A stretch of DNA of 32,636 nt from an uncultured Flavobacteriaceae bacterium. GTDB lineage: Bacteria > Bacteroidota > Bacteroidia > Flavobacteriales > Flavobacteriaceae. This document shows, one piece after another, positions 4,783 to 21,433 of the stretch; position 1 is the stretch's first letter, and each line of letters begins with the position of its first letter. The position numbers and the translations under genes are program-made. Where the stretch lies: positions 1-32,636 of the forward strand of contig CAKZOR010000053.1 in NCBI GenBank assembly GCA_937136755.1. Direction: 5' to 3'. The notes under the pieces are model-generated. The model was not told where the DNA came from. It made no database searches and saw only the letters and a program-made list of their open reading frames with translations.

Positions 4783-4797
4783 CCTCATATTTATTAA

Positions 4798-4923
4798 GAG
4801 GAAGGATTTGACTGATTGCAACCTCTTTACGAAGCCAAGGCTGATGTAAAAAAAAGTGCTAAAGCAGTTCACCATAGGTTCTATGTGGTGATAAAACCCC
4901 GCTAACAAGTCAAATTCGCCCTC
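4798..4923 (+). ncRNA. Structured RNA in front of metK: candidate 6S-type (6S-Flavo-like) RNA or SAM-clan-like leader
   Basis: A long closing stem pairs GAGG (4798-4801) plus GGATTTGACT (4804-4813) with AGTCAAATTC (4908-4917) plus CCTC (4920-4923), separated by a 2x2 internal loop. Inside, GCAAC (4818-4822) can pair with GTGC (4856-4859) and TTTAC (4826-4830) with GTAAA (4846-4850), capped by AGCC/GGCT. A second hairpin pairs CACC+ATAG (4870-4877) with CTAT+GGTG (4881-4884 and 4887-4890). The RNA starts a few bases after a good promoter and ends 22 bases before metK, with no terminator between. Two readings fit. One is a Bacteroidota 6S-type RNA (long closing stem, open central bubble, own promoter). 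The other is a metK leader related to the SAM-I/SAM-IV clan, since GCAACC...GTGCTAAA recalls the P3/J3-4 core. The kink-turn arm P2 of SAM-I is missing. I could not decide between them. Confidence 0.6.
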
Positions 4924-4945: not shown

Positions 4946-6202
4946 ATGGCTTATTTATTTACTTCAGAATCTGTGAGTGAGGGACACCCAGATAAAATTG
5001 CTGATCAGATTTCAGATGCCCTTTTAGATAATTTTTTAGCTTTTGATCCACAAAGTAAAGTGGCTTGTGAAACACTAGTAACCACTGGTCAAGTTGTGTT
5101 GGCGGGTGAGGTAAAGAGCAATACTTATTTAGATGTTCAGCAGATAGCCAGAGATGTGATTAACAAAATAGGCTATACCAAAGGAGCGTATCAGTTCAGT
5201 GGAGACTCTTGTGGAGTTATTTCTTTAATACACGAGCAGTCTCAGGATATTAATCAAGGAGTAGATAGGGGTGCTAAAGAAGAGCAAGGTGCTGGAGACC
5301 AAGGAATGATGTTTGGTTATGCGTCTAAAGAGACAGAGAACTTCATGCCTTTGGCCTTAGATATTTCTCATAAAATATTAGAGGAATTGGCCGCAATGAG
5401 AAGAGAGGGAACCCAGATTTCTTATCTCAGACCAGATGCTAAAGCCCAGGTGACCATTGAATATTCAGACGACAATCAACCACAACGAATAGACACCATT
5501 GTAGTTTCTACCCAGCACGATCCCTTTTTAGAAGACGATCAGGCCATGTTAGACATTATCAAAAAAGATATTATTGAAAAGCTTTTGCCAAGAGTAGTAG
5601 CGCAGTTTCCTGCCCATGTACAAGCATTGTTTAATGATCAAATTACCTATTACATAAACCCAACGGGTAAGTTTGTGATTGGTGGTCCTCACGGAGATAC
5701 GGGTCTTACAGGGAGAAAAATTATTGTAGATACCTACGGGGGTAAAGGCGCTCATGGAGGAGGTGCTTTTAGTGGGAAAGATCCTTCCAAGGTAGACCGT
5801 TCTGCGGCCTATGCTGCCAGACATGCAGCTAAGAATTTAGTAGCTGCTGGAGTGGCTTCAGAAATTTTAGTGCAACTCAGTTATGCTATTGGTGTGGTGG
5901 AGCCTACGAGTATTTATGTAGATACTTATGGGACATCGGCCACAGGCCTAACAGATGGTGAAATAGCTAAAAAAGTAAGCGAAATTTTTGACATGCGTCC
6001 GCATGCTATTGAGGAGCGTTTGCAATTGCGCAACCCTATTTATTTAGAAACCGCTGCTTACGGTCATATGGGGAAAACCCCTAGAAAAGTGACTAAGGTA
6101 TTTGAGTCTCCTTACAACGGTAGGGTAGAGAAAGAAGTGACCCTATTTACATGGGAACAATTAGATAAAGTGTCAGAGGTACAAAAAGCCTTTGATTTGT
6201 GA
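4946..6202 (+). CDS. metK: S-adenosylmethionine synthetase (methionine adenosyltransferase)
   Basis: Converts methionine and ATP to SAM plus phosphate and diphosphate in the cytoplasm. The 418-residue protein opens with [22 protein letters not shown], where the GHPDK motif (residues 14-18) holds the ATP-contacting His and Asp. [11 protein letters not shown] around residues 115-126 is the second signature, and the GGGAFSGKD glycine-rich loop (about 273-281) the third. Length is typical of the Bacteroidota form. It stands alone between the structured leader RNA and a hairpin at 6217-6236, and directly precedes the SAM-I riboswitch operon, so the enzyme that makes SAM sits next to the element that senses it. 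The ATG at 4946 gives the expected N-terminus. Confidence 0.97.
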
Positions 6203-6249: not shown

Positions 6250-6279
6250 AAATAAGTTCAAACAATTATTGAATAGTTA

Positions 6280-6411
6280 TCAAGAAAGGTGGAGGGATTA
6301 GACCCTGTGAAGCCTTAGCAACCCTTTGTTCTATGCAAAGAAGGTGCTAAATTCTATCTCATTTGAGAATAGATAACCGGAATGCTTACCGTCTGTAAGC
6401 GAACTTTCTTA
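6280..6411 (+). promoter_or_regulatory. SAM-I (S-box) riboswitch aptamer
   Basis: P1 pairs AAGAAAG (6282-6288) with CTTTCTT (6404-6410). The conserved stretch GGTGGAGGGATTAGACCC (6288-6305) forms the P2/kink-turn side, followed by TGAAGCC. P3 pairs GCAACC+CTTTG (6318-6328) with CAAAG+GGTGC (6336-6347). GCTAA of the conserved J3/4 is at 6346-6350. P4 pairs TCTATCTC (6353-6360) with GAGAATAGA (6365-6373). An extra hairpin GCTTAC/GTAAGC (6384-6400) sits between P4 and the closing strand. The order and core sequence match the SAM-I class very closely. It should lower expression of the downstream methionine operon when SAM is abundant. Confidence 0.95.
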
Positions 6412-6500: not shown

Positions 6501-7802
6501 ATGAGTACCGAAAAAAACAACCAATTTGCTACAAACGCATTACACGCGGGGCACGATCCAAAATTAACTGGAGGCACCAGAGCGGTGCCTATTTATCAGA
6601 GTACCGCCTATGTCTTTGACAGTGCAGAGCATGCGGCCAATTTATTTTCTTTGGCAGAGCCTGGAAATATTTACACCAGAATTAACAATCCTACTACAGA
6701 TATTTTAGAGCAGCGTTTGGCTGCTTTGGAAGGTGGTATTGCTTCTGTGGTCACTGCCTCTGGAACCGCAGCCATTGCCACTTCATTACTAGTACTTTTA
6801 AAAGCGGGAGACCATATTGTAGCGTCTAGTAGTCTGTATGGAGGGACCTATAACTTGCTCAATGTGACCTTGCCCAGATTGGGCATTACCACTACCTTCG
6901 TAGATCCTTCAGATCCGGCCAATTTTGAGGCAGCGGTTCAGGAAAATACCAGGGCTTTCTTTGCAGAGTCATTGGGGAACCCAAAATTAGATGTATTGGA
7001 TTTAAAAGCTATTGCAGCCCATGCAAAAACCGCTAAAGTCCCCTTTATTGTAGATAATACAGTGGCTACTCCTGGCTTGTTAAATCCTATAGCACACGGT
7101 GCCAATATTGTGATTCATTCGCTCACCAAATACATTAACGGAAACGGAACGGCTTTGGGCGGGGCCATTATAGATGCCGGAACCTTTGATTGGAGCAATG
7201 GAAAATTCCCAGAATTCACCGAACCCTCTGCAGGTTATCACGGACTTATTTACCACGAGGCTTTGGGAGCAGCCTCCTTTATTGCGAAAGTGAGAATAGA
7301 GGGGCTTAGAGATTATGGGGCGGCCATTAGTCCTTTCAATGCCTTTCAGATTCTACAAGGTTTGGAAACCTTGACTATTAGAATTGCCAAGCACTCAGAA
7401 AATGCCTTAGCTTTGGCCACATGGTTAGAGGAGCAAGAATTGGTTTCTTGGGTAAACTACCCAGGTTTGGCTTCCAGCGCCTACCGTGAATTAGCCCAAA
7501 GTTATTTACCTAAGGGTCAAAGTGGTATTGTTACTTTTGGGGTGAAAGGCGGTTTTGAATCTGCTAAAAAAGTAGCCAATGAAACCAAATTATTCTCTTT
7601 ATTGGCAAATATTGGAGATAGCAAATCACTCATCATACACCCTGCGAGCACCACGCATCAGCAATTGTCACCAGACGCTCAATTGACCACTGGTGTAACA
7701 GAAGACTTAATCAGACTCTCTGTTGGATTAGAAGATATAGAGGATCTTAAGGCAGATTTAACGGCTGTTTTTGAAACCATTAAAGCCACCCAATTGGTAT
7801 AA
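6501..7802 (+). CDS. metY: O-acetylhomoserine sulfhydrylase (O-acetylhomoserine aminocarboxypropyltransferase)
   Basis: Makes homocysteine directly from O-acetylhomoserine and sulfide with pyridoxal phosphate; it may also use O-acetylserine. 433 residues, the longer length typical of MetY rather than of MetB/MetZ (about 390). It opens with the MetY-like FATNALHAGHDP stretch. The PLP lysine is K210 in VIHSLTKYINGNG, and YTRINNPTTDILEQRLAALEGG is the family signature near residue 54. It is the first gene after the SAM-I riboswitch and supplies the step after the acetyltransferase domain encoded by the next gene. A strong hairpin with a T-rich tail lies between the two, so metY may be transcribed more than the rest of the operon. 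Confidence 0.93.
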   Translation: MSTEKNNQFATNALHAGHDPKLTGGTRAVPIYQSTAYVFDSAEHAANLFSLAEPGNIYTRINNPTTDILEQRLAALEGGIASVVTASGTAAIATSLLVLLKAGDHIVASSSLYGGTYNLLNVTLPRLGITTTFVDPSDPANFEAAVQENTRAFFAESLGNPKLDVLDLKAIAAHAKTAKVPFIVDNTVATPGLLNPIAHGANIVIHSLTKYINGNGTALGGAIIDAGTFDWSNGKFPEFTEPSAGYHGLIYHEALGAASFIAKVRIEGLRDYGAAISPFNAFQILQGLETLTIRIAKHSENALALATWLEEQELVSWVNYPGLASSAYRELAQSYLPKGQSGIVTFGVKGGFESAKKVANETKLFSLLANIGDSKSLIIHPASTTHQQLSPDAQLTTGVTEDLIRLSVGLEDIEDLKADLTAVFETIKATQLV

Positions 7803-7850: not shown

Positions 7851-10800
7851 ATGAAAAAGCTCACTATTAAAGCCTTTACAACACAGTCGGATCATACACA
7901 AGATATTTCCTTGAGCTATGAGCACTTTGGTCTTCCTTTGGACCAGGCGCCGGTTGTTTTAGTGAACCATGCCCTTACAGGAAACTCTAATGTGGCGGGA
8001 GCGGACGGTTGGTGGTCTGCCTTGATTGGTCCGGACAAATGCATTGACACTAATCGCTACGCAGTCTTGGCTTTTAATATTCCAGGCAATGGATACGACG
8101 GATTTGTAATAGATGCGTACAAACAATTTGTAGCCAAAGACATGGCGCAATTATTTTTAATGGGCTTGGAAGCTTTAGGAGTTTCAAAGCTTTACGCGAT
8201 TATTGGTGGCTCTCTCGGTGGTGGAATTGCTTGGGAAATGGCGGCTATAAATCCAGCAATTACGTCGCATTTAATTCCCGTAGCTTCTGATTGGAAATCT
8301 ACCGATTGGCTCATTGCCAATTGTCAAATTCAAGAACAATTTTTATTGAATTCCAAACAGCCTGTTCACGACGCGCGCATGCACGCCATGTTGTGTTACA
8401 GGACGCCTGAATCTTTTAATCAGCGCTTTAATAGAAGCACCAATGAGGCCCTTCAGGTATTTAATGTAGAGAGTTGGCTCACCCACCATGGAGAAAAATT
8501 GCAGTCTAGGTTTCAGTTGTCTGCGTATAAATTAGTGAATCAGCTGTTGCGATCCATAGACATTACCAAAAATGGTCCAGAGGCTTTTAAAAAATTACAA
8601 GAGAGCGACACCCATATTCATATTATAGGGGTAGACTCAGATTTGTTTTTTACAGCCAGTGAAAATAAAGAAACCTTTAAGCAACTGGCACAATCTCAGT
8701 CCAATGTGACCTATGGAGAAATTAATTCTGTACATGGGCACGATGCCTTTTTACTAGAATTTGAGCAGTTAGAGGTCCTTTTGGCAGGTATTTTTAAGCC
8801 TCAAGCGGCGGCCGCTAAGGTACAGGTCTTAAAGTTTGGTGGCACTTCCTTGGCCAATGGAGAGGGTCTTTCCAAAGTCATTGAGATTGTGGGGGCTAAA
8901 AAAGCAGCCCAGCAACCCATTGCCCTAGTGGTTTCTGCCAGAGACAATGCCACTGATCAATTAGAGCGTTTGTTGGCACTGGCGTCCCAAGGCCAGGACT
9001 ACCATCCTGCCCTGGACTTTTTCAAAGCCCAACAAACCACACCATTAAAGAAGCCTATTTTAGCCCATGATTTTGAACAGCTGAGTCAAATTTTAGCTGG
9101 GGTAGCCCTCATTAAAGATTACAGTGAAAAGACCAAAGACCAAGTCTTGTCTTTTGGTGAATTACTCTCAGCCAAAACACTGGTTTATTTACTCTCACAG
9201 CAAGGACTAGACGCACAGCTGTTAGATACCAGGGCATTGATTAAAACCAACAGTGACTTTGGAAATGCGTCTGTGAAAGAAGCCCTGTCAAAAAAAGCCA
9301 TCTTAGCGGCTTATGAGGCATTAGACCCCCATATTATTCCAGTTTTTACCGGTTTTATTGCTGCTAATGAAAAAGGCGAAACCACTACGCTAGGTCGTAA
9401 TGGGAGTAATTATTCAGCGGCTCTTATCGCGAGTTTTTTAGACGCTGGAGAGCTTCAGAACTTCACCCACGTAGATGGGATATATACTGCAGACCCTAAC
9501 TTGGTGCCAGAGGCAGAAAAAATTGCCGCTTTGTCTTATAGCGAGGCCAATGAGTTGGCTAATTTTGGGGCTACCATACTCCACGCTAAAACCATTATTC
9601 CACTCATTGAAAAAAATATTCCCCTTAGAATTTTAAACACCTTTAAGGCAGACAACGAAGGAACGCTCATTAGTGCCACTCCTACTGAGGCGGGTATTAA
9701 ATCCCTCTCAGTGATTGCAGATGTGACCCTTATCAATATAGAAGGACGCGGCTTGTTGGGAAAAGCAGGCGTAGATGCCCGTATTTTTAAAACCCTGGGA
9801 AATGCCCATATTAGTGTCAGTATTATTTCTCAGGGTTCTTCTGAAAGAGGGATTGGTTTGGTGGTAGCCGCAAAAGACGCTACTGAGGCCATTATTTCCT
9901 TAGAGCGAGAATTTGAGCAAGATTTTTACGCACAGGATGTCAATAGAATATATGCAGTAGATCAGGTCTCTGTGATTTCTATAGTTGGGCAAGATTTGAG
10001 CTCTTTTCACAAACCTTACAATGCGCTTATTAAAAATCAGATAGTGCCTTTGCTTTTTAACAATACAGTCACGGGTAAAAATGTCTCTTTGGTCTTGCTT
10101 AAAAAAGACCTAAACAAGGCGCTGAACGTCATGCATGCTCAGATTTTTGGGCAGCCTAAAAAAGTGAATATCGCTGTAGTAGGTGTGGGGCAAGTAGGCG
10201 GTGCGCTCATTGATCAAATTTTAAAGACCGCCCCTCAGATAGAAGCGAGAAAAGGAATTAAACTTCAGGTTTTTGCCCTTTTAAATTCCAAAAAAATGTT
10301 GTTGAATGCACAAGGCATTGGAACGGCTTCACAAGATTGGCGCTCTGAGCTCACTACTTTAGGAGAAGCGGTGCATTTTGAAAAACTCTTTTCATACGCC
10401 CAGGAGCAGCATTTAGAAAATTTAATACTGGTAGACAATACGGCAAGTACCCCTTTTGTGCAGCATTATGAGCGCTTTGTCCGTCATGGGTTTGACCTGG
10501 TTTCCTCTAATAAAATTGCCAATACCTTGCCGTTTAATCAGTATAAATCTCTGAGAGAAACCCTGAATACGTATCAAAAGCAATACTTATATGAGACCAA
10601 TGTAGGTGCAGGATTGCCCCTGATAGACACCATTAAATTACTCCATCTTTCTGGAGAAAACATCACTCAGATTAAAGGGGTATTCTCAGGCTCGCTGAGT
10701 TATATATTCAATACTTTTTCAACGGCAGAAATCCCTTTTTCACAAGTGGTCAAAGAGGCTTTGCATAATGGCTATACGGAGCCTGACCCAAGGGAGGACC

Positions 10801-11243
10801 TCAGCGGAAACGATGTGGGTAGGAAACTACTTATTTTGGCGAGAGAGTTAGATCTAAAGAATGAATTTTCAGAGGGAGTGATTGAAAATTTAATCCCAGA
10901 GGGATTGCAGTCACTAGATGCCCCTGAATTCTTAGTACAAATGTCTAAATTAGATCCTATATTTGCAGAGATTAAAGCAGGTTTGGCCCCAGATGAGGTC
11001 CTTAGATATGTGGGGGTTTTAGGAGGCGATTTGCAAAAAGAGAAAGGAGCGCTCAGTGCGGGACTTTGTAAAGTACCCAAACAAAGCCCCTTGGGTCAGG
11101 TAAAAGGGGCAGATTCTATTATTGAAATATATACGGAATCTTATGGAGACCAGCCTATTGTTATTCAAGGCGCCGGAGCAGGAGCCACAGTCACCGCCAG
11201 AGGGGTCTTTGGAGACATTTTGAGAATCGTGGAGAAGAATTAA
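7851..11243 (+). CDS. Trifunctional fusion: homoserine O-acetyltransferase (MetX) - aspartokinase - homoserine dehydrogenase
   Basis: 1130 residues in three parts. Residues 1-317 are an alpha/beta-hydrolase homoserine acyltransferase: NHALTGNSNV near 39, the nucleophile S121 in GGSLGG, D264 in VDSDLFF and H297 in HGHDAFL complete a Ser-Asp-His triad. An Ala-rich linker (about 318-323) leads to an aspartokinase (KFGGTS at 328-333; two ACT-like regulatory repeats about 620-765). From about 771 follows a homoserine dehydrogenase: GxGxxG at 778-783, the SSNKIAN stretch, and D988/K992 in the GNDVGRK motif. AK-HSD fusions (ThrA, MetL) are well known; a MetX domain in front is unusual. The protein would carry out the first and third steps of homoserine synthesis and the acetylation that commits it to methionine. 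Its place in a SAM-I riboswitch operon, with no thrB or thrC, supports a methionine-dedicated role. The start abuts a terminator tail and has no visible ribosome binding site. Confidence 0.92.
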   Translation: MKKLTIKAFTTQSDHTQDISLSYEHFGLPLDQAPVVLVNHALTGNSNVAGADGWWSALIGPDKCIDTNRYAVLAFNIPGNGYDGFVIDAYKQFVAKDMAQLFLMGLEALGVSKLYAIIGGSLGGGIAWEMAAINPAITSHLIPVASDWKSTDWLIANCQIQEQFLLNSKQPVHDARMHAMLCYRTPESFNQRFNRSTNEALQVFNVESWLTHHGEKLQSRFQLSAYKLVNQLLRSIDITKNGPEAFKKLQESDTHIHIIGVDSDLFFTASENKETFKQLAQSQSNVTYGEINSVHGHDAFLLEFEQLEVLLAGIFKPQAAAAKVQVLKFGGTSLANGEGLSKVIEIVGAKKAAQQPIALVVSARDNATDQLERLLALASQGQDYHPALDFFKAQQTTPLKKPILAHDFEQLSQILAGVALIKDYSEKTKDQVLSFGELLSAKTLVYLLSQQGLDAQLLDTRALIKTNSDFGNASVKEALSKKAILAAYEALDPHIIPVFTGFIAANEKGETTTLGRNGSNYSAALIASFLDAGELQNFTHVDGIYTADPNLVPEAEKIAALSYSEANELANFGATILHAKTIIPLIEKNIPLRILNTFKADNEGTLISATPTEAGIKSLSVIADVTLINIEGRGLLGKAGVDARIFKTLGNAHISVSIISQGSSERGIGLVVAAKDATEAIISLEREFEQDFYAQDVNRIYAVDQVSVISIVGQDLSSFHKPYNALIKNQIVPLLFNNTVTGKNVSLVLLKKDLNKALNVMHAQIFGQPKKVNIAVVGVGQVGGALIDQILKTAPQIEARKGIKLQVFALLNSKKMLLNAQGIGTASQDWRSELTTLGEAVHFEKLFSYAQEQHLENLILVDNTASTPFVQHYERFVRHGFDLVSSNKIANTLPFNQYKSLRETLNTYQKQYLYETNVGAGLPLIDTIKLLHLSGENITQIKGVFSGSLSYIFNTFSTAEIPFSQVVKEALHNGYTEPDPREDLSGNDVGRKLLILARELDLKNEFSEGVIENLIPEGLQSLDAPEFLVQMSKLDPIFAEIKAGLAPDEVLRYVGVLGGDLQKEKGALSAGLCKVPKQSPLGQVKGADSIIEIYTESYGDQPIVIQGAGAGATVTARGVFGDILRIVEKN

Positions 11244-16198: not shown

Positions 16199-17152
16199 AT
16201 GAAGATTACCCAGCACATAGCAGCCGCAAAAGGGAACACCTTATTTTCCTTTGAAATAGTCCCCCCCGTGAAAGGTGGGAATATTCAGGAGCTTTACAAC
16301 AATATAGACCCACTGATGGCCTTTAACCCACCTTTTATAGATGTGACCACCTCTAGAGAGGAATTTGTCTATTTAAAGAAAGAAGGTCTATTGGAGAAAA
16401 AGCTCACCAGAATGAGACCAGGTACCGTAGGTATTTGCGCTTCCATAAAGCATAAGTATGGGGTAGATACGGTTCCCCATGTACTCTGCGGTGGTTTTAC
16501 CAAAGAAGAGACGGAATACTTATTGGTAGATTGCCAGTACTTAGGGATAGAAAATGTCATGGCCCTTAGGGGCGATGCCATGGCTGGCCAACGTTATTTT
16601 GAAGCCACTCCCGGGGGGCACACTTATGCCAAGGACCTAGTGGGGCAAATAAAAGATTTGGGCGATGGAAAGTACCTGCATGAAGAAATTGAAAGTGCCC
16701 ATACTACCTCTTTTTGTATTGGTGTAGCTGGGTATCCAGAGAAACACATGGAAGCACCTTCCTTACAGCAAGACCTCAAAAGGCTCAAAGAAAAGGTAGA
16801 CGCAGGCGCAGACTACGTGGTGACCCAAATGTTTTTTGACAACCAAAAATACTTTGAGTTTGTAGCAGCCGCAAAAGAAATGGGCATAGAGGTACCTATT
16901 ATTCCGGGTATTAAACCCATTGCAGTAGAAAAACACTTACAACTTTTACCTCAGGTATTCAGTCTAGACTTACCTCAGGACCTTATAGACGCAGTCTCTG
17001 ATGCAAAAGACAAAGCCGCCATAAGACAGGTAGGAATTGAATGGGCTATTGCCCAATCTAAAGAGCTTATGGCTGCCGGCGTACCCGTTTTGCATTATTA
17101 CTCCATGGGTAAATCCAGCAATATAGAAGCCATAGCTGCTGAGGTATTTTAA
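16199..17152 (+). CDS. metF: 5,10-methylenetetrahydrofolate reductase
   Basis: Reduces 5,10-methylene-THF to 5-methyl-THF, the methyl donor for the MetH encoded just upstream. 317 residues from the ATG at 16199, two bases after the metH stop, giving MKITQHIAAAKGNTLFSFEIVPP. The FSFEIVPP stretch with E19 is the catalytic signature, and ALRGD and GVAGYPEKH follow in the expected order; QMFFDN lies near residue 205. An upstream in-frame ATG at 16166 would add 11 residues encoded inside the metH tail and is less likely. It is the last gene of the SAM-regulated operon; the region after it shows only an imperfect inverted repeat rather than a clear terminator. Confidence 0.94.
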   Translation: MKITQHIAAAKGNTLFSFEIVPPVKGGNIQELYNNIDPLMAFNPPFIDVTTSREEFVYLKKEGLLEKKLTRMRPGTVGICASIKHKYGVDTVPHVLCGGFTKEETEYLLVDCQYLGIENVMALRGDAMAGQRYFEATPGGHTYAKDLVGQIKDLGDGKYLHEEIESAHTTSFCIGVAGYPEKHMEAPSLQQDLKRLKEKVDAGADYVVTQMFFDNQKYFEFVAAAKEMGIEVPIIPGIKPIAVEKHLQLLPQVFSLDLPQDLIDAVSDAKDKAAIRQVGIEWAIAQSKELMAAGVPVLHYYSMGKSSNIEAIAAEVF

Positions 17153-17234: not shown

Positions 17235-17294
17235 GCTTAAATGGAAGAATTCAAAAAAAATCAATGGAATTCATGGTGTTTTAATTATAATAAT

Positions 17295-17309
17295 TACATT
17301 AGCTCTTTG
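17295..17309 (+). promoter_or_regulatory. Weak promoter candidate for the pheA leader
   Basis: TACATTAG (17295-17302) and GCTCTTTG (17302-17309) are each near-matches to TAnnTTTG. No convincing -33 box is seen. Either would start transcription about 5-12 bases before the leader peptide ATG at 17321. Some promoter must lie here because the attenuator needs the leader transcribed. Confidence 0.3.
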
Positions 17310-17320
17310 TAAAAGAAAAT

Positions 17321-17395
17321 ATGACACTTAGCACAAATTTCTGGAACCGTTTTTACTTTTACTTCTATTTTAATAGAAGTACGGGGCTTTTCTAG
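17321..17395 (+). CDS. Phe/Tyr-rich leader peptide of the pheA operon
   Basis: A 24-residue reading frame, ATG at 17321 to TAG at 17393-17395. It contains a run of alternating aromatic codons, FYFYFYF at residues 11-17 (17351-17371), plus Phe at 7 and 24 and Trp at 8, so 10 of 24 residues are aromatic. It precedes a hairpin over the same codons, an antiterminator and a strong terminator just before pheA. This is the standard design of a ribosome-stalling attenuation peptide for Phe/Tyr synthesis. It is inferred from position, composition and pairing; translation has not been shown. An A-rich stretch (AAAAGAAAAT) precedes the ATG, in keeping with initiation in Bacteroidota that lacks a Shine-Dalgarno site. 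Confidence 0.85.
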   Translation: MTLSTNFWNRFYFYFYFNRSTGLF

Positions 17396-17430
17396 GATAT
17401 TGTGAACGATATACCTTATTAAGAGTCCCG
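17361..17430 (+). promoter_or_regulatory. Attenuator: 1:2 hairpin and alternative antiterminator
   Basis: Segment 1, ACTTCTAT (17361-17368), within the Phe/Tyr codons, pairs perfectly with ATAGAAGT (17373-17380). Next to it, CGGGGCTTTT (17382-17391) can pair over ten positions, two of them G-U, with AAGAGTCCCG (17421-17430), which contains the 5' arm of the terminator hairpin (17426-17431). A ribosome stalled on the aromatic codons would cover segment 1 and favour the antiterminator. Fast translation through to the stop at 17393 would cover segment 2 and let the terminator form. All pairings were found by eye. Confidence 0.8.
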
Positions 17431-17450
17431 CTGTTGCGGGATTTTTTTTT
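17426..17450 (+). terminator. Strong intrinsic terminator before pheA (attenuator terminator)
   Basis: TCCCGC (17426-17431), loop TGTT, GCGGGA (17436-17441), then nine T (17442-17450). It ends eight bases before the pheA ATG, so pheA can only be expressed by readthrough. Confidence 0.95.
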
Positions 17451-17458
17451 GATTAAAA

Positions 17459-18295
17459 ATGAAAGAAAAAATGACAATAGCCATTCAAGGCATAAAGGGA
17501 TCTAACCACCATCAGGTGGCCATAGATTGCTATGGTTCAGACCAGGAGATGCTTCCTTGTATGTCTTTTCCGGCCTTGGTTCAGGAACTTATGGAGGGCC
17601 ATGCAGATAAGGGCATTATGGCTATTGAAAATTCTATTGCGGGTTCTATTATTCCAAACTACGCTTTGGTGTATGACCACCACTTGCATATTATTGGAGA
17701 GTATTACTTAAATATTCACCACCACCTTATGGCCTTAGCGGGGCAAAGGATGGAAGATATTAAGGCAGTGCATTCCCATCCCATGGCTTTATTGCAGTGT
17801 CATGAGTTTTTTAAAAAGCATCCGCAGATTCAATTGGTAGAAGATGTAGATACGGCAGAAACTGCGCAACGTATTCAATCTGGTCAGTTAAAAGGTATTG
17901 CGGCTATAGCCCCTAAAGTTGCTGCTGGATTGTATGGCCTAGAAGTCTTGGCTTCTGACATACAAACCATTAAAAACAATGCCACTCGTTTTATTATTGT
18001 AAAAACAAGCTCTAAGGAAATTCCTCAAGAGCATATTAATAAAGCATCGCTTCGTTTTGTGCTAGATCACAAAAGGGGCAGTTTGGCTGCAGTGCTCAAT
18101 GTGATGAGTGACTGTCATTTAAATTTAACAAAAATACAATCACTTCCTGTGATAGATCTTCCATGGAAGTACGCTTTTTTTGTAGACGTTACTTTTGATC
18201 ATTATGAAGATTACACTAAAGCTAGAGCTATTTTAGAAATAATGGCTACAGAGTTTAGGGTATTGGGAGAATATACAAATGCTAGAGAATTATGA
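17459..18295 (+). CDS. pheA: Prephenate dehydratase, monofunctional, with ACT domain
   Basis: Converts prephenate to phenylpyruvate, the branch step to phenylalanine. 278 residues: the catalytic domain (about 6-185) carries the IENSIAGS stretch near 56 and the catalytic T176-R177-F178 motif in NNATRF. Residues about 195-275 form an ACT domain. The motifs that bind Phe in many PheA proteins, GALY and ESRP, read GSLA (207-210) and QSLP (227-230) here, so feedback inhibition may differ. There is no chorismate mutase domain; that activity comes from the fusion three genes downstream. The start at 17459 follows the attenuator terminator; an in-frame ATG at 17471 is possible. Its last four bases overlap the aminotransferase gene. 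Confidence 0.93.
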   Translation: MKEKMTIAIQGIKGSNHHQVAIDCYGSDQEMLPCMSFPALVQELMEGHADKGIMAIENSIAGSIIPNYALVYDHHLHIIGEYYLNIHHHLMALAGQRMEDIKAVHSHPMALLQCHEFFKKHPQIQLVEDVDTAETAQRIQSGQLKGIAAIAPKVAAGLYGLEVLASDIQTIKNNATRFIIVKTSSKEIPQEHINKASLRFVLDHKRGSLAAVLNVMSDCHLNLTKIQSLPVIDLPWKYAFFVDVTFDHYEDYTKARAILEIMATEFRVLGEYTNAREL

Positions 18296-19440
18296 AAACA
18301 GCCACACGTTTAAATACGGTACAAGAATACTACTTCTCTAGAAAGTTAAGAGAGGTTAGGGGCCTAATGGCAGCGGGAAAACCTATTATTAATATGGGCA
18401 TTGGGAGTCCAGACTTGGCACCAGACCCAAAGGTTACACAGGCTTTAATAGCTGCCACGGCCGCGGAGAATGCCCACCAGTATCAGTCCTATCAGGGACT
18501 GCCCGAGCTCAGAGAAGCCATGGCGTCTTTTTATAAAAGACAGTTTGGTGTTTCTTTAGACGCAGCCACAGAGATTTTGCCATTGATGGGTTCAAAAGAA
18601 GGGATCATGCACATTAGTATGGCCTTTTTAAACCCAGGAGATGGAGTGCTAATTCCAGATCCAGGATACCCTACCTATCAGTCAGTATCTGATTTGGTAG
18701 GCGCTAAGGTCATTCCTTACAGGCTTTCTATTGAGCACAATTGGTTGCCAGATATAGCCGCTTTGGAGCAGTTAGACCTCACTCAGGTGAAACTCATGTG
18801 GCTGTCTTACCCTCATATGCCCACTGGAGCACTAGCTTCGGTAGCAGCACTTACCGAATTGGTGGCCTTTGCCAAAAAGCACGATATTCTTTTGGTCAAT
18901 GACAACCCTTATAGTTTTATTTTAAACAAGGCACCTCAGAGTATCTTATCTATTCCAGGCGCTAAAGGACATGTATTGGAGTTAAATTCTTTAAGTAAGA
19001 CCTTTAATATGGCAGGCTGGCGTGTAGGAATGGTGTTAGGAGACGCAGCCATTATTAATGCGGTGCTTAAGGTGAAGAGTAATATGGATTCTGGGATGTT
19101 TTATCCGGTACAAAAAGGAGCCATAGCGGCATTGGAAGTGGCTGACGATTGGTATACAGCACTTAATAAAGTATATGAGGAGCGAAGGGCGCTCACCTAT
19201 GAATTGGCAGACGCTTTGGGTTGTACTTACGATTTAAAGGCGGTGGGCTTATTTGTATGGGCTAAATTACCAGAGGGCGTAACAGATGCAGAAGCTTTTA
19301 TAGAGGCATTGTTACATGAAAAAGATTTATTTATTACTCCTGGAACTATTTTTGGAGCCGGTGGAGCAGGCTATATTCGTTTTTCTCTTTGTGTAGACAA
19401 AACGATTATAAAAGAAGCTATTGAACGCGTGAAGAATTAA
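18292..19440 (+). CDS. Class I/II PLP aminotransferase, probably aromatic
   Basis: 382 residues of fold-type I aminotransferase: the PLP lysine is K236 in LNSLSKTFNMAGWRVGM, with the NMGIGSPDLAPD stretch near residue 35 and NDNPYSF holding the conserved Asn and Tyr. Its position between pheA and tyrA, overlapping pheA by four bases (ATGA), points to conversion of phenylpyruvate and 4-hydroxyphenylpyruvate to Phe and Tyr. Family relatives also act on aspartate, alanine or LL-diaminopimelate, so the substrate is inferred from context. It is under the same attenuator as pheA. Confidence 0.85.
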   Translation: MKTATRLNTVQEYYFSRKLREVRGLMAAGKPIINMGIGSPDLAPDPKVTQALIAATAAENAHQYQSYQGLPELREAMASFYKRQFGVSLDAATEILPLMGSKEGIMHISMAFLNPGDGVLIPDPGYPTYQSVSDLVGAKVIPYRLSIEHNWLPDIAALEQLDLTQVKLMWLSYPHMPTGALASVAALTELVAFAKKHDILLVNDNPYSFILNKAPQSILSIPGAKGHVLELNSLSKTFNMAGWRVGMVLGDAAIINAVLKVKSNMDSGMFYPVQKGAIAALEVADDWYTALNKVYEERRALTYELADALGCTYDLKAVGLFVWAKLPEGVTDAEAFIEALLHEKDLFITPGTIFGAGGAGYIRFSLCVDKTIIKEAIERVKN

Positions 19441-19442
19441 GT

Positions 19443-20306
19443 ATGAAAGTAGTTTGTGTTATAGGAGTTGGTTTAATTGGAGGTTCTTTTTCTAAAGATA
19501 TCAAGGAACATTATCCTGAGGTGAAACGCATTGGGATTGACCAAAATGAAGACTACTTAAAGGAAGCTTTGTCCTTGGGTGTGATTGAAGAGATAGGGCG
19601 TTTAGAAGATGTGGTAAAGGCAGATCTGGTATTTATAGCTATTCCGGTAGACGCCGCTTTAAAAGTATTGCCACTTGTATTGGATCAGGTGTCTGCGCAT
19701 GCGGTAGTAGTAGATGCCGGTTCCACAAAGGCCAGCTTATGTGAGGCGGTTAAAGACCATCCCAATAGAAGAAATTACTTGGCAGCGCACCCCATTGCTG
19801 GGACAGAGTTCTCAGGGCCATCGGCCGCAATAGCGGGCCTATTTAAAGGAAAGACACAGATTATCTGTGAAGTAGAGCAAACGGCTTTTAAATTACAAGA
19901 AAAGGCCTTAGAGGTATTTCAAGCTCTGGGTATGCGTATTCGTTATATGAACGCAGCAGCGCATGATGTTCACATTGCTTATGTGTCTCATCTGTCACAT
20001 ATTAGCGCCTTTATGTTGGGAAAGACAGTCATGGAGAAAGAAGAAAATGAAAGAGATATCTTTGACATGGCAGGTAGTGGTTTTGAGAGTACGGTACGTC
20101 TGGCGAAAAGTTCCCCTGCCATGTGGGCACCTATTTTTAAAGATAATAAAAAAGCTGTGGTAGCCGCACTTTCAGAGTATATTAAAAATTTAGAACATTT
20201 TAAATCTTTGGTAGAAGCCAATGATTTCAACGGGCTGTACAATCAAATGGAACAGACCAACAGAATTAAAGATATTTTAACTGGGCTTGCCCCTCAACAT
20301 AAATAA
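19443..20306 (+). CDS. tyrA: Prephenate dehydrogenase
   Basis: Oxidatively decarboxylates prephenate to 4-hydroxyphenylpyruvate, the branch step to tyrosine. 287 residues: the nucleotide-binding loop GVGLIGGS lies at residues 8-15, an acidic residue after the second strand (GIDQN) suggests NAD rather than NADP, and AAHPIAGTEFSGP and YVSHLSH carry the catalytic and substrate-binding histidines. No ACT or chorismate mutase domain is present. It begins two bases after the aminotransferase stop. A very short AAGGC/GCCTT hairpin follows its stop but is unlikely to end the transcript. Confidence 0.94.
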   Translation: MKVVCVIGVGLIGGSFSKDIKEHYPEVKRIGIDQNEDYLKEALSLGVIEEIGRLEDVVKADLVFIAIPVDAALKVLPLVLDQVSAHAVVVDAGSTKASLCEAVKDHPNRRNYLAAHPIAGTEFSGPSAAIAGLFKGKTQIICEVEQTAFKLQEKALEVFQALGMRIRYMNAAAHDVHIAYVSHLSHISAFMLGKTVMEKEENERDIFDMAGSGFESTVRLAKSSPAMWAPIFKDNKKAVVAALSEYIKNLEHFKSLVEANDFNGLYNQMEQTNRIKDILTGLAPQHK

Positions 20307-20350: not shown

Positions 20351-21433
20351 ATGGAGAATTCAAAAGAAATGAGAAACTGGTTAGATGCCATGAATTTAGA
20401 TCATCCGCTTGTAATTGCAGGGCCATGTAGCGCTGAAACGGAAGAGCAAGTATTAAAAATTGCACATGAGTTGAAAGACACGGATGTCAATTATTTTAGA
20501 GCCGGTATTTGGAAGCCTCGTACTAAGCCAGGTATGTTTGAGGGAGTAGGTGCTTTAGGTTTAAAGTGGTTGCAAAAAGTAAAAAAAGAAACAGGTTTAA
20601 AAACAGCTACTGAGGTGGCTAATAAAGCACATGTAGAATTGGCTTTGGAGCACGATGTAGATCTTTTATGGATTGGTGCGCGTTCAACAGTGAGCCCTTT
20701 TATTATTCAAGAAATTGCAGACGCCCTAGAGGGAACGGATAAGATTGTATTGGTGAAAAACCCAGTAAATCCAGATTTAGCCCTTTGGTTAGGAGCAGTA
20801 GAGCGTTTGGCCAATGCCAATATTAAAAATTTAGGCGTAATTCATAGAGGGTTTTCTACCTATGAGAAAACTAAGTACAGAAATATTCCAGAATGGCAGA
20901 TTGCAATTGAATTACAGCAGAAATTTCCAGATTTGCCTATCATTAATGATCCTTCTCACATTACTGGAAAGCGCGATATGATTTTTGATGTTTCACAGAC
21001 TGCTTTGGATTTAAATTTTGACGGTCTCATGATTGAGACGCATTTTGATCCTGACAATGCTTGGAGTGATGCCGCACAACAGGTTACCCCTAGCTCTTTG
21101 GTTCAGATCATGAAAGACCTGAAGATTAGAAAAGAGTCTTCTGCTGAAACAGATTACAATGTGGAGTTAAACACCTTAAGGGCTCAAATAGATGTGATTG
21201 ACAACCAGCTTATTGAGACCCTTTCAAAAAGAATGAAAGTGGCAGATGCTATAGGAGGAATTAAAAAATCTCAAAATGTGGCGGTCTTACAAAGCAACCG
21301 TTGGAATGAGATTTTAGGAAAAATGATTCTAGAAGGGGAGTCCAAAGGGCTCAGTGAAGAGTTTGTTTTAAAAATGTTTAAAGCCATTCACCAAGAATCT
21401 ATTAACCACCAAGAGAAAATCTTAAAGGCCTAA
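20351..21433 (+). CDS. DAHP synthase - chorismate mutase fusion
   Basis: 360 residues. Residues 1 to about 262 are a type I-beta-like DAHP synthase (first step of the shikimate pathway): GPCSAET at 24-30 with the metal-binding Cys, RAGIWKPRTKPG near 55-66, and NDPSHITGKRD with metal and phosphate ligands. Residues about 273-360 are an AroQ-type chorismate mutase (LRAQIDVIDNQLIETLSKRM, then the KK and Q/E-rich helices). Such fusions are typical of Bacteroidota, and a related enzyme from Porphyromonas gingivalis is reported to be inhibited by prephenate. Here it joins the pathway entry to the branch point and supplies chorismate mutase for the monofunctional PheA and TyrA. It follows tyrA by 44 bases and is probably in the same operon. 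Confidence 0.94.
   Translation: MENSKEMRNWLDAMNLDHPLVIAGPCSAETEEQVLKIAHELKDTDVNYFRAGIWKPRTKPGMFEGVGALGLKWLQKVKKETGLKTATEVANKAHVELALEHDVDLLWIGARSTVSPFIIQEIADALEGTDKIVLVKNPVNPDLALWLGAVERLANANIKNLGVIHRGFSTYEKTKYRNIPEWQIAIELQQKFPDLPIINDPSHITGKRDMIFDVSQTALDLNFDGLMIETHFDPDNAWSDAAQQVTPSSLVQIMKDLKIRKESSAETDYNVELNTLRAQIDVIDNQLIETLSKRMKVADAIGGIKKSQNVAVLQSNRWNEILGKMILEGESKGLSEEFVLKMFKAIHQESINHQEKILKA

Follow-up and report, generated by a model that had tools for sequence, protein, structure and literature searches.

Locus and gene content

The window analysed here is a stretch of 32,636 nucleotides from an uncultured marine Flavobacteriaceae bacterium. Its forward strand carries an operon of four genes for aromatic amino acid synthesis. 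The first is pheA, encoding prephenate dehydratase (17459-18295), with an ACT match that falls under the Pfam cut-off. It overlaps by 4 bases with a gene for a class I/II aminotransferase (18292-19440), which is followed by genes for a prephenate dehydrogenase (tyrA, 19443-20306) and for a DAHP synthase fused to chorismate mutase (20351-21433). With this gene content, the operon supplies both Phe and Tyr. The closest named relatives by pheA are Flavobacteria bacterium MS024-3C and two metagenome bins, with 94-95% identity, and no viral relatives of pheA were found in a viral search.

A metF-like gene ends at 17152, and the gap between it and the start of pheA at 17459 is 306 bases, the length given in the original prediction. 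This gap contains all the parts of the putative attenuator described below. In the whole window, Rfam at gathering scores identified only two SAM riboswitches, both of which lie outside this element. They are of two different classes and belong to one methionine gene cluster, in which SAM-II (4792-4872) precedes the gene for a SAM synthetase (4946-6202) and SAM-I (S box; 6274-6379) the gene for a PLP enzyme of Cys/Met metabolism (6501-7802). There is also an ORF (7851-11243) whose product of 1130 amino acids combines, in a single chain, domains of an alpha/beta hydrolase, an amino acid kinase with ACT and a homoserine dehydrogenase; it may be a ThrA-like enzyme fused to a homoserine acyltransferase.

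Leader ORF and predicted promoter

The leader peptide ORF (17321-17395, forward strand) has 24 codons, reads MTLSTNFWNRFYFYFYFNRSTGLF and ends with the stop codon TAG at 17393. Residues 11-17 form the run FYFYFYF, seven Phe/Tyr codons at 17351-17371, exactly as had been described, and the run exceeds what is obtained from dinucleotide shuffles of the gap. Among 4000 of these, an ATG-initiated ORF of 10-40 codons with seven of seven Phe/Tyr residues was never obtained, and one with six of seven was obtained 14 times. The aromatic leader is kept in relatives.

A likely promoter of the Bacteroidota type lies at 17274-17302, with a -33-like TGG (17274-17276; TTG in relatives L032 and L034) and a -7-like TACATTAG (17295-17302), and would place the RNA start near 17308. 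The untranslated RNA 5′ of the leader ATG would then be about 13 nt long. The scoring is based on the Bacteroidota promoter consensus (-33/-7), to which the window conforms at 7 of 9 positions; 124 of 210 sequences score 8 or 9, and in 76 of those 124 matches the -7 element lies 23-27 nt upstream of the leader ATG.

No G-rich peak is seen at the place expected for a Shine-Dalgarno site before the leader ATGs of 210 sequences. The ATG context shows an A at -3 in 78% and an A at -6 in 62% of these. Bacteroidota ribosomes are reported to fail at Shine-Dalgarno recognition (PMC9976891, PMC6847099), and in Flavobacterium johnsoniae an A at -3 is described as a positive determinant of initiation (PMC6847099).

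Helices of the leader RNA

Several helices are predicted for the forward strand of the gap. Hairpin P1b (17361-17380) lies within the aromatic codons and consists of 8 perfect base pairs (17361-17368 with 17373-17380). Segment 2 (17382-17391), the 5′ strand of the antiterminator, pairs with segment 3 (17421-17430) at all ten positions, two of them as G-U (17386/17426 and 17389/17423). Segment 3 is common to the antiterminator and to a predicted intrinsic terminator (17421-17450), which has an 11-bp stem (17421-17431/17436-17446), a loop of 4 and nine T (17442-17450). The perfect hairpin, the ten-position antiterminator and the terminator with nine T ending just before pheA are thus all present as first described. 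By its sequence, the region has the make-up of an attenuator, with a run of codons for the products of the operon in a short ORF and a predicted intrinsic terminator before the first structural gene.

The role given to the 17361-17380 hairpin as first stem has to be revised. The hairpin exists, but it does not overlap segment 2 and so cannot by itself compete with the antiterminator. The putative 1:2 competitor is a longer helix around it that the original prediction had missed, the long-range helix P1a (anti-antiterminator, 17332-17404). P1a is composed of 17339-17346/17390-17397, an outer part (17332-17336/17400-17404) and a weak inner part (17349-17353/17383-17387), and it encloses P1b. In an untranslated leader it would take up part of segment 2.

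Distribution among relatives

The search of the family covered 199 genomes including the window's own, 178 of them with pheA, and 150 upstream regions were examined, these being 30 loci (own included) and a further 120. Of the 150, 147 have an aromatic leader upstream of pheA, complete in 146 and cut by a contig end in one (L230, where the leader is partly visible); it is absent in L157, L197 and L231. pheA was placed by tblastn in 144 of these regions, of which 136 have an ATG leader with at least 5/8 Phe/Tyr. In L143, L155, L187 and L148 the script chose a TTG start and an ATG leader is present. The six regions in which tblastn did not place pheA have the leader on rescan. In 80 named loci, a set that overlaps the 150, the aromatic leader is complete in 79 and cut in one. 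Five more divergent family loci beyond the 150 (L276-L279 and L260) also have the leader. In L157 a GC hairpin (CCCGCAGAAAGGCGGG) remains without a T run and is perhaps the remnant of a decayed attenuator.

Outside the family, 32 loci from the order and the class were examined; 22 have an aromatic leader, a weak one in one case, and 10 have none. The order set (40 genomes, own included) has 17 genomes outside the family with pheA, 11 of them with the leader, while the class set (60 genomes, own included; Bacteroidia in GTDB) has 16 others with pheA, 11 with the leader, the weak case being L237. One leaderless genome is common to both lists, and their union is the 32 loci.

A covariance model built from close relatives (R1) has a single copy in 24 of 40 genomes. 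Fifteen copies lie directly before pheA, as judged by coordinates or tblastn, and 8 more in the genus of the window carry an aromatic leader. The remaining match, in G260, was judged false, as no aromatic leader accompanies it and the search for pheA gave no hit in that genome (76% complete).

The original prediction had named a lack of conservation in close relatives among the outcomes that would refute it. Reading frame, aromatic run and alternative pairing are all conserved, and so is the spacing between the aromatic codons and segment 2, so that this test did not refute it.

At one locus (L264, 1216-1482), two putative attenuators lie in series before a pheA homolog with an internal stop. 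The first unit has the leader MNNLVSTFRFFGFFFFRKEGAMS and a terminator, and the second has the leader MNQNTQQNFSFFGFFFFKWKSEAVD and a terminator of its own. Phe is present and Tyr absent in both leaders, and the antiterminator fit at this locus refers to the second unit only. Further tandem leaders were looked for among 216 distinct pheA upstream regions. A second Phe/Tyr-rich ORF occurs in five, and by eye none of these looks like a second leader with its own terminator.

Covariation of segments 2, 3 and 4

Pairing was analysed in 211 distinct regions of the family and named sets with at least 5/8 Phe/Tyr, the mispicked L143, L155, L187 and L148 being retained. The terminator was located solely by 3:4 complementarity and a T run, and the best duplex that its 5′ arm forms with the region of the leader stop was then taken. 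The mean score of the 2:3 duplex is 17.35, against 11.25 when shuffled and 14.84 when segment 3 is taken from a different genome, although only 150 of the 211 duplexes lie above 95% of their own shuffles.

The terminators fall into types by their core. Where this is of the GTCTCG type (n = 79), segment 2 best fits solely that type in 70 cases, with 3 ties and 6 that fit another type. With the GTCCCG type (n = 84), segment 2 fits its own type alone in 55, ties in 17 and fits GTCCCA better in 12. The own type alone is fitted in 9 of the 17 GTCCTG-type sequences and in only 4 of the 21 of GTTCCG type, 16 of which fit GTCCCG, i.e., through G-U pairs. The remaining terminators are two of GTCCCA type and eight without a recognised core. 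Within the genus of the window, relative L034 has CGAGACTT/AAGTCTCG in place of CGGGGCTTTT/AAGAGTCCCG, with the terminator altered to match.

At loci beyond the family, segments 2 and 3 have unrelated sequences and are mostly still complementary, examples being AGCGGGATTT, GAGCGGTC, and ACGGGAGG, in a set of 21 loci for which there is no shuffle control. This set is made up of 20 of the 22 leaders from outside the family (the near copies L252 and L263 being omitted) and the family locus L260. Poor segment fits outside the family set were seen in L235, L240, and L244.

Within leader types, where the segments vary little, the signal is weak. The leaders were divided into groups G, Y, and o by their final residues, and in a fixed-column test within leader types pairing reached 91% and 90% at one register. 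Permuting segment 3 among 110 G-type sequences lowered pairing from 91.2% to 89.8%, the observed value being above all 500 permutations, and permuting it among 53 Y-type sequences gave no drop. On alignment A1 the antiterminator is 75.9% paired, with a modest signal of 14 double-change cells against 7.1 when shuffled. Run on plain MAFFT alignments, RNAalifold recovered hardly any structure from A1, where differing loop lengths probably put the terminator columns out of register, and little besides the terminator from A2; on both alignments pairing was counted for named structures instead of taking the RNAalifold consensus.

As the drop on permutation within types is small or nil, the evidence from covariation lies in the contrasts between types, genera and families. 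Segments 2, 3, and 4 change jointly between these groups, with a weak signal within them. It is from these contrasts that the antiterminator, as a predicted structure exclusive with the terminator, appears to be maintained by compensatory changes.

Helices P1a and P1b in relatives

In relatives the counterpart of P1a is formed by the YFWNG codons with the GLL-stop codons, and in another group by the YTY codons with the LYV-stop codons; this pairing may be the reason for the conservation of these non-stall codons. In 110 sequences the P1a duplex has an energy of -15.25 with its own 3′ strand, -7.74 when shuffled, and -6.1 with the 3′ strand of other groups, 95 sequences being in the best 5% of shuffles. 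The corresponding values for 53 sequences are -10.66, -5.34, and -7.95, with 41 in the best 5%, and for the mixed group of 48 they are -9.94, -7.05, and -7.49, with only 17 in the best 5%. P1a is conserved in two of the groups.

On alignment A1, the relatives' version of P1a has 84.9% of its cells paired, against at most 55.1% in slid controls, For the version of the window the figures are 71.0% and at most 57.5%, and the outer five pairs are not conserved (36.3% paired). Double changes in P1a on A1 number 33 against 15.4 when shuffled, but the controls slid by +1 and +2 have 39 each. On A2 77.3% of P1a is paired, against at most 60.6% when slid, and covariation there is not above shuffles. 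For hairpin P1b on A1 the figures are 89.8% paired against at most 70.6%, and 16 cells with two-sided changes against 5.2 when shuffled, making the inner hairpin a well supported prediction.

Trp is found in 139 of the 211 leaders (L002-L229), where it makes up 3% of residues and often adjoins the Phe/Tyr run. Its role may lie in the sensing, or in helix P1a only.

Spacing, folding energies, and ribosome position

Spacing was measured from the first base of the last aromatic codon. In the window, segment 2 begins 13 nt downstream of this base and its first purine lies 14 nt downstream of it. Among 206 sequences, which are related and not independent, 178 have the first purine of their segment 2 core at a distance of 14-15 nt; this set is the 211 without L143, L155, L187, L148, and L101, the last having its duplex assigned to a wrong stretch. 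Of the three groups, the first has 14 nt in 106 of its 110 sequences and the second 15 nt in 50 of 52; in the third, which ranges from 10 to 20 nt, 22 of 44 have 14 or 15 nt. The position of segment 2 relative to the stop codon is variable, 10 nt before it, 15 nt before it or even after it. For the 21 loci, which come mainly from other families, spacing was taken to the duplex start, which is not quite the same measure; 18 of them have 10-17 nt, and the other three have 6, 20, and 26 nt. A bacterial ribosome covers about 12-13 nt past the first base of the codon in its A site, and so a ribosome awaiting the last aromatic codon would leave segment 2 just free.

The energies of the alternative folds, a comparison put forward with the original prediction, came out on both sides. 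In the full free RNA, P1a with the terminator is favoured over the antiterminator by 3.9 kcal/mol (-38.5 vs. -34.6 kcal/mol). In RNA cut at the terminator loop and without a ribosome, it is the antiterminator that is favoured (-29.8 vs. -24.7 kcal/mol for P1a), with a value of 0.998 for the antiterminator in the window, and the cut free RNA favours the antiterminator in 139 of 211 sequences. When the RNA upstream of 17382 is held by a ribosome, terminator and antiterminator are 1.8 kcal/mol apart and near balance (-21.8 vs. -20.0 kcal/mol). As the terminator is the better structure even with the upstream RNA occupied, antitermination would have to depend on the order of folding. With a ribosome masked at the aromatic codons, the antiterminator is predicted in 205-206 of 211 sequences, and with one at the stop in 1 of 211, in a test that is partly true by construction. 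Spacing and masking, the latter with that qualification, give a clear prediction that segment 2 would be free in the stall state and covered when the ribosome is at the stop.

Proposed mechanism and alternative explanations

The element is very probably a ribosome-mediated transcription attenuator, working without a Shine-Dalgarno site, through which the supply of Phe and Tyr would control the pheA-aminotransferase-tyrA-DAHP synthase operon. This was the reading of the original prediction, and the conserved frame, aromatic run, pairings and spacing support it, with the competitor helix changed to P1a. The short RNA would begin some 13 nt upstream of the leader ATG, where translation would start independently of a Shine-Dalgarno site. 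When Phe-tRNA and Tyr-tRNA are ample, the ribosome would run to the stop at 17393 and cover segment 2, the 3:4 stem would form and transcription would terminate before pheA. With Phe or Tyr short, the ribosome would stall in codons 11-17, break P1a and leave segment 2 exposed ahead of it; 2:3 pairing could then form before segment 4 is synthesised, and the polymerase would enter the operon. If the leader were not translated, P1a might keep segment 2, the terminator being the more stable predicted outcome in the full RNA.

The best placed of the alternatives, although improbable, is translational control, in which the 3:4 hairpin near the pheA start would block ribosomes and a ribosome on the leader would open it or restart at pheA. 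Reinitiation near leader genes has been proposed in many bacteria including Bacteroidetes (PMC4833913), and the distances at some loci are suitably short. The T run of the window ends 8 bases before the pheA ATG, and from the terminator stem to the pheA start there are at most 8 bases in 62 of 211 sequences. However, this distance is at least 40 in 72 of the 211, and the start codon of pheA in the window lies outside the hairpin. Moreover, in 207 of the 211 the T run after the stem (median 9) is 6 or more long, a feature which a translational switch does not need. In two loci, L121 and L127, the attenuator is 338 and 234 nt upstream of pheA, well above the median gap of 20, which suggests an insert or a small gene between the two.

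It is slightly less probable again that the RNA itself acts as the receptor for Phe, Tyr, a tRNA or a protein, as a riboswitch, T-box or protein-controlled attenuator would, with the aromatic ORF being incidental. Such an RNA would be well structured, as this one is, and a terminator and antiterminator pair fits any control of this kind. With E-values up to 10, though, Rfam gave only sub-threshold matches over the element and no family at cut-off. Conservation lies in the aromatic frame and in the distance between its last aromatic codon and segment 2, whereas helix sequences differ from group to group, and a binding pocket would show the reverse. Nor does the ORF look incidental, as in 216 distinct regions upstream of pheA, each of 500 bases or fewer, one with at least 5/7 Phe/Tyr is found on the sense strand in 208 and on the antisense strand in 9.

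Chance, in which TTT-rich stretches of an AT-rich gap happen to encode Phe and the terminator is an ordinary one serving the upstream gene, is hardly credible and is refuted by conservation. None of the 4000 shuffles gave seven of seven, the leader is conserved before pheA across genera and families, and three segments carry matching changes.

Returning to the ribosome-mediated attenuator, a history can be proposed for it to which we would give about even weight. Co-sensing of Phe and Tyr would have arisen early in the class and been retained before pheA while its helices were rewritten, with ribosomes that do not use Shine-Dalgarno sites and at a constant spacing of about 14-15 nt, and in at least one lineage (L264) the attenuator would have been doubled in series.

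Comparison with known systems

The original prediction held that ribosome-mediated attenuation is much less studied in Bacteroidota. In F. psychrophilum, strong clues for leader-peptide attenuation at amino acid operons have been reported (Guerin et al., 2021; PMC9723704), and the same paper lists a 5′ element upstream of pheA among those present in other Flavobacteriaceae genera, so that the element described here is not wholly new. The two are alike in their place upstream of pheA, in the family, in being shared by further genera and in having no Rfam match. Section 19 of that paper gives no pheA leader sequence, pairing or spacing and does not itself call the pheA element an attenuator. As far as that section shows, the present analysis contributes the sequence of the leader, its helices (P1a among them), the spacing and the distribution across the class. 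On comparative evidence, the textbook trp/phe attenuator is thereby extended to a phylum for which literature searches gave clues of it in one paper (PMC9723704).

The element could serve as a compact natural reporter of the coupling of leader translation and transcription in Bacteroidota. Since ribosome profiling of F. johnsoniae already exists (PMC6847099), it can be asked directly whether this coupling is close enough for attenuation. The analysis also predicts that expression of the aromatic operon would respond to Phe and Tyr across a large bacterial group. Earlier comparative surveys of attenuation, by Vitreschak in 2004, Lyubetsky in 2007 and Lopatovskaya in 2010, may cover Bacteroidetes as well.

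By score, the element is not the same RNA family as the Phe leader of Rfam (RF01859 Phe_leader), against which it reaches 14.5 bits with a cut-off of 55. Its best weak match is to RF00512 Leu_leader, at 25.2 bits with a cut-off of 50, and it could be described as a new RNA family. The leader attenuators of the Yanofsky type in trp, his, and leu operons (RF00513, RF00514, RF00512) work with stall codons and the alternatives 1:2, 2:3, and 3:4; the element follows the same logic and differs from them in the amino acids sensed, in sequence and in phylum. The enteric pheA and pheST attenuators have a short Phe-rich leader ORF and an alternative antiterminator and terminator, the pheA one controlling prephenate dehydratase. 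The element resembles them in its Phe-rich leader ORF, in its alternative antiterminator and terminator and in its proposed control of prephenate dehydratase; unlike them, it has mixed Phe and Tyr codons, no Shine-Dalgarno-like site and an operon that serves both amino acids.
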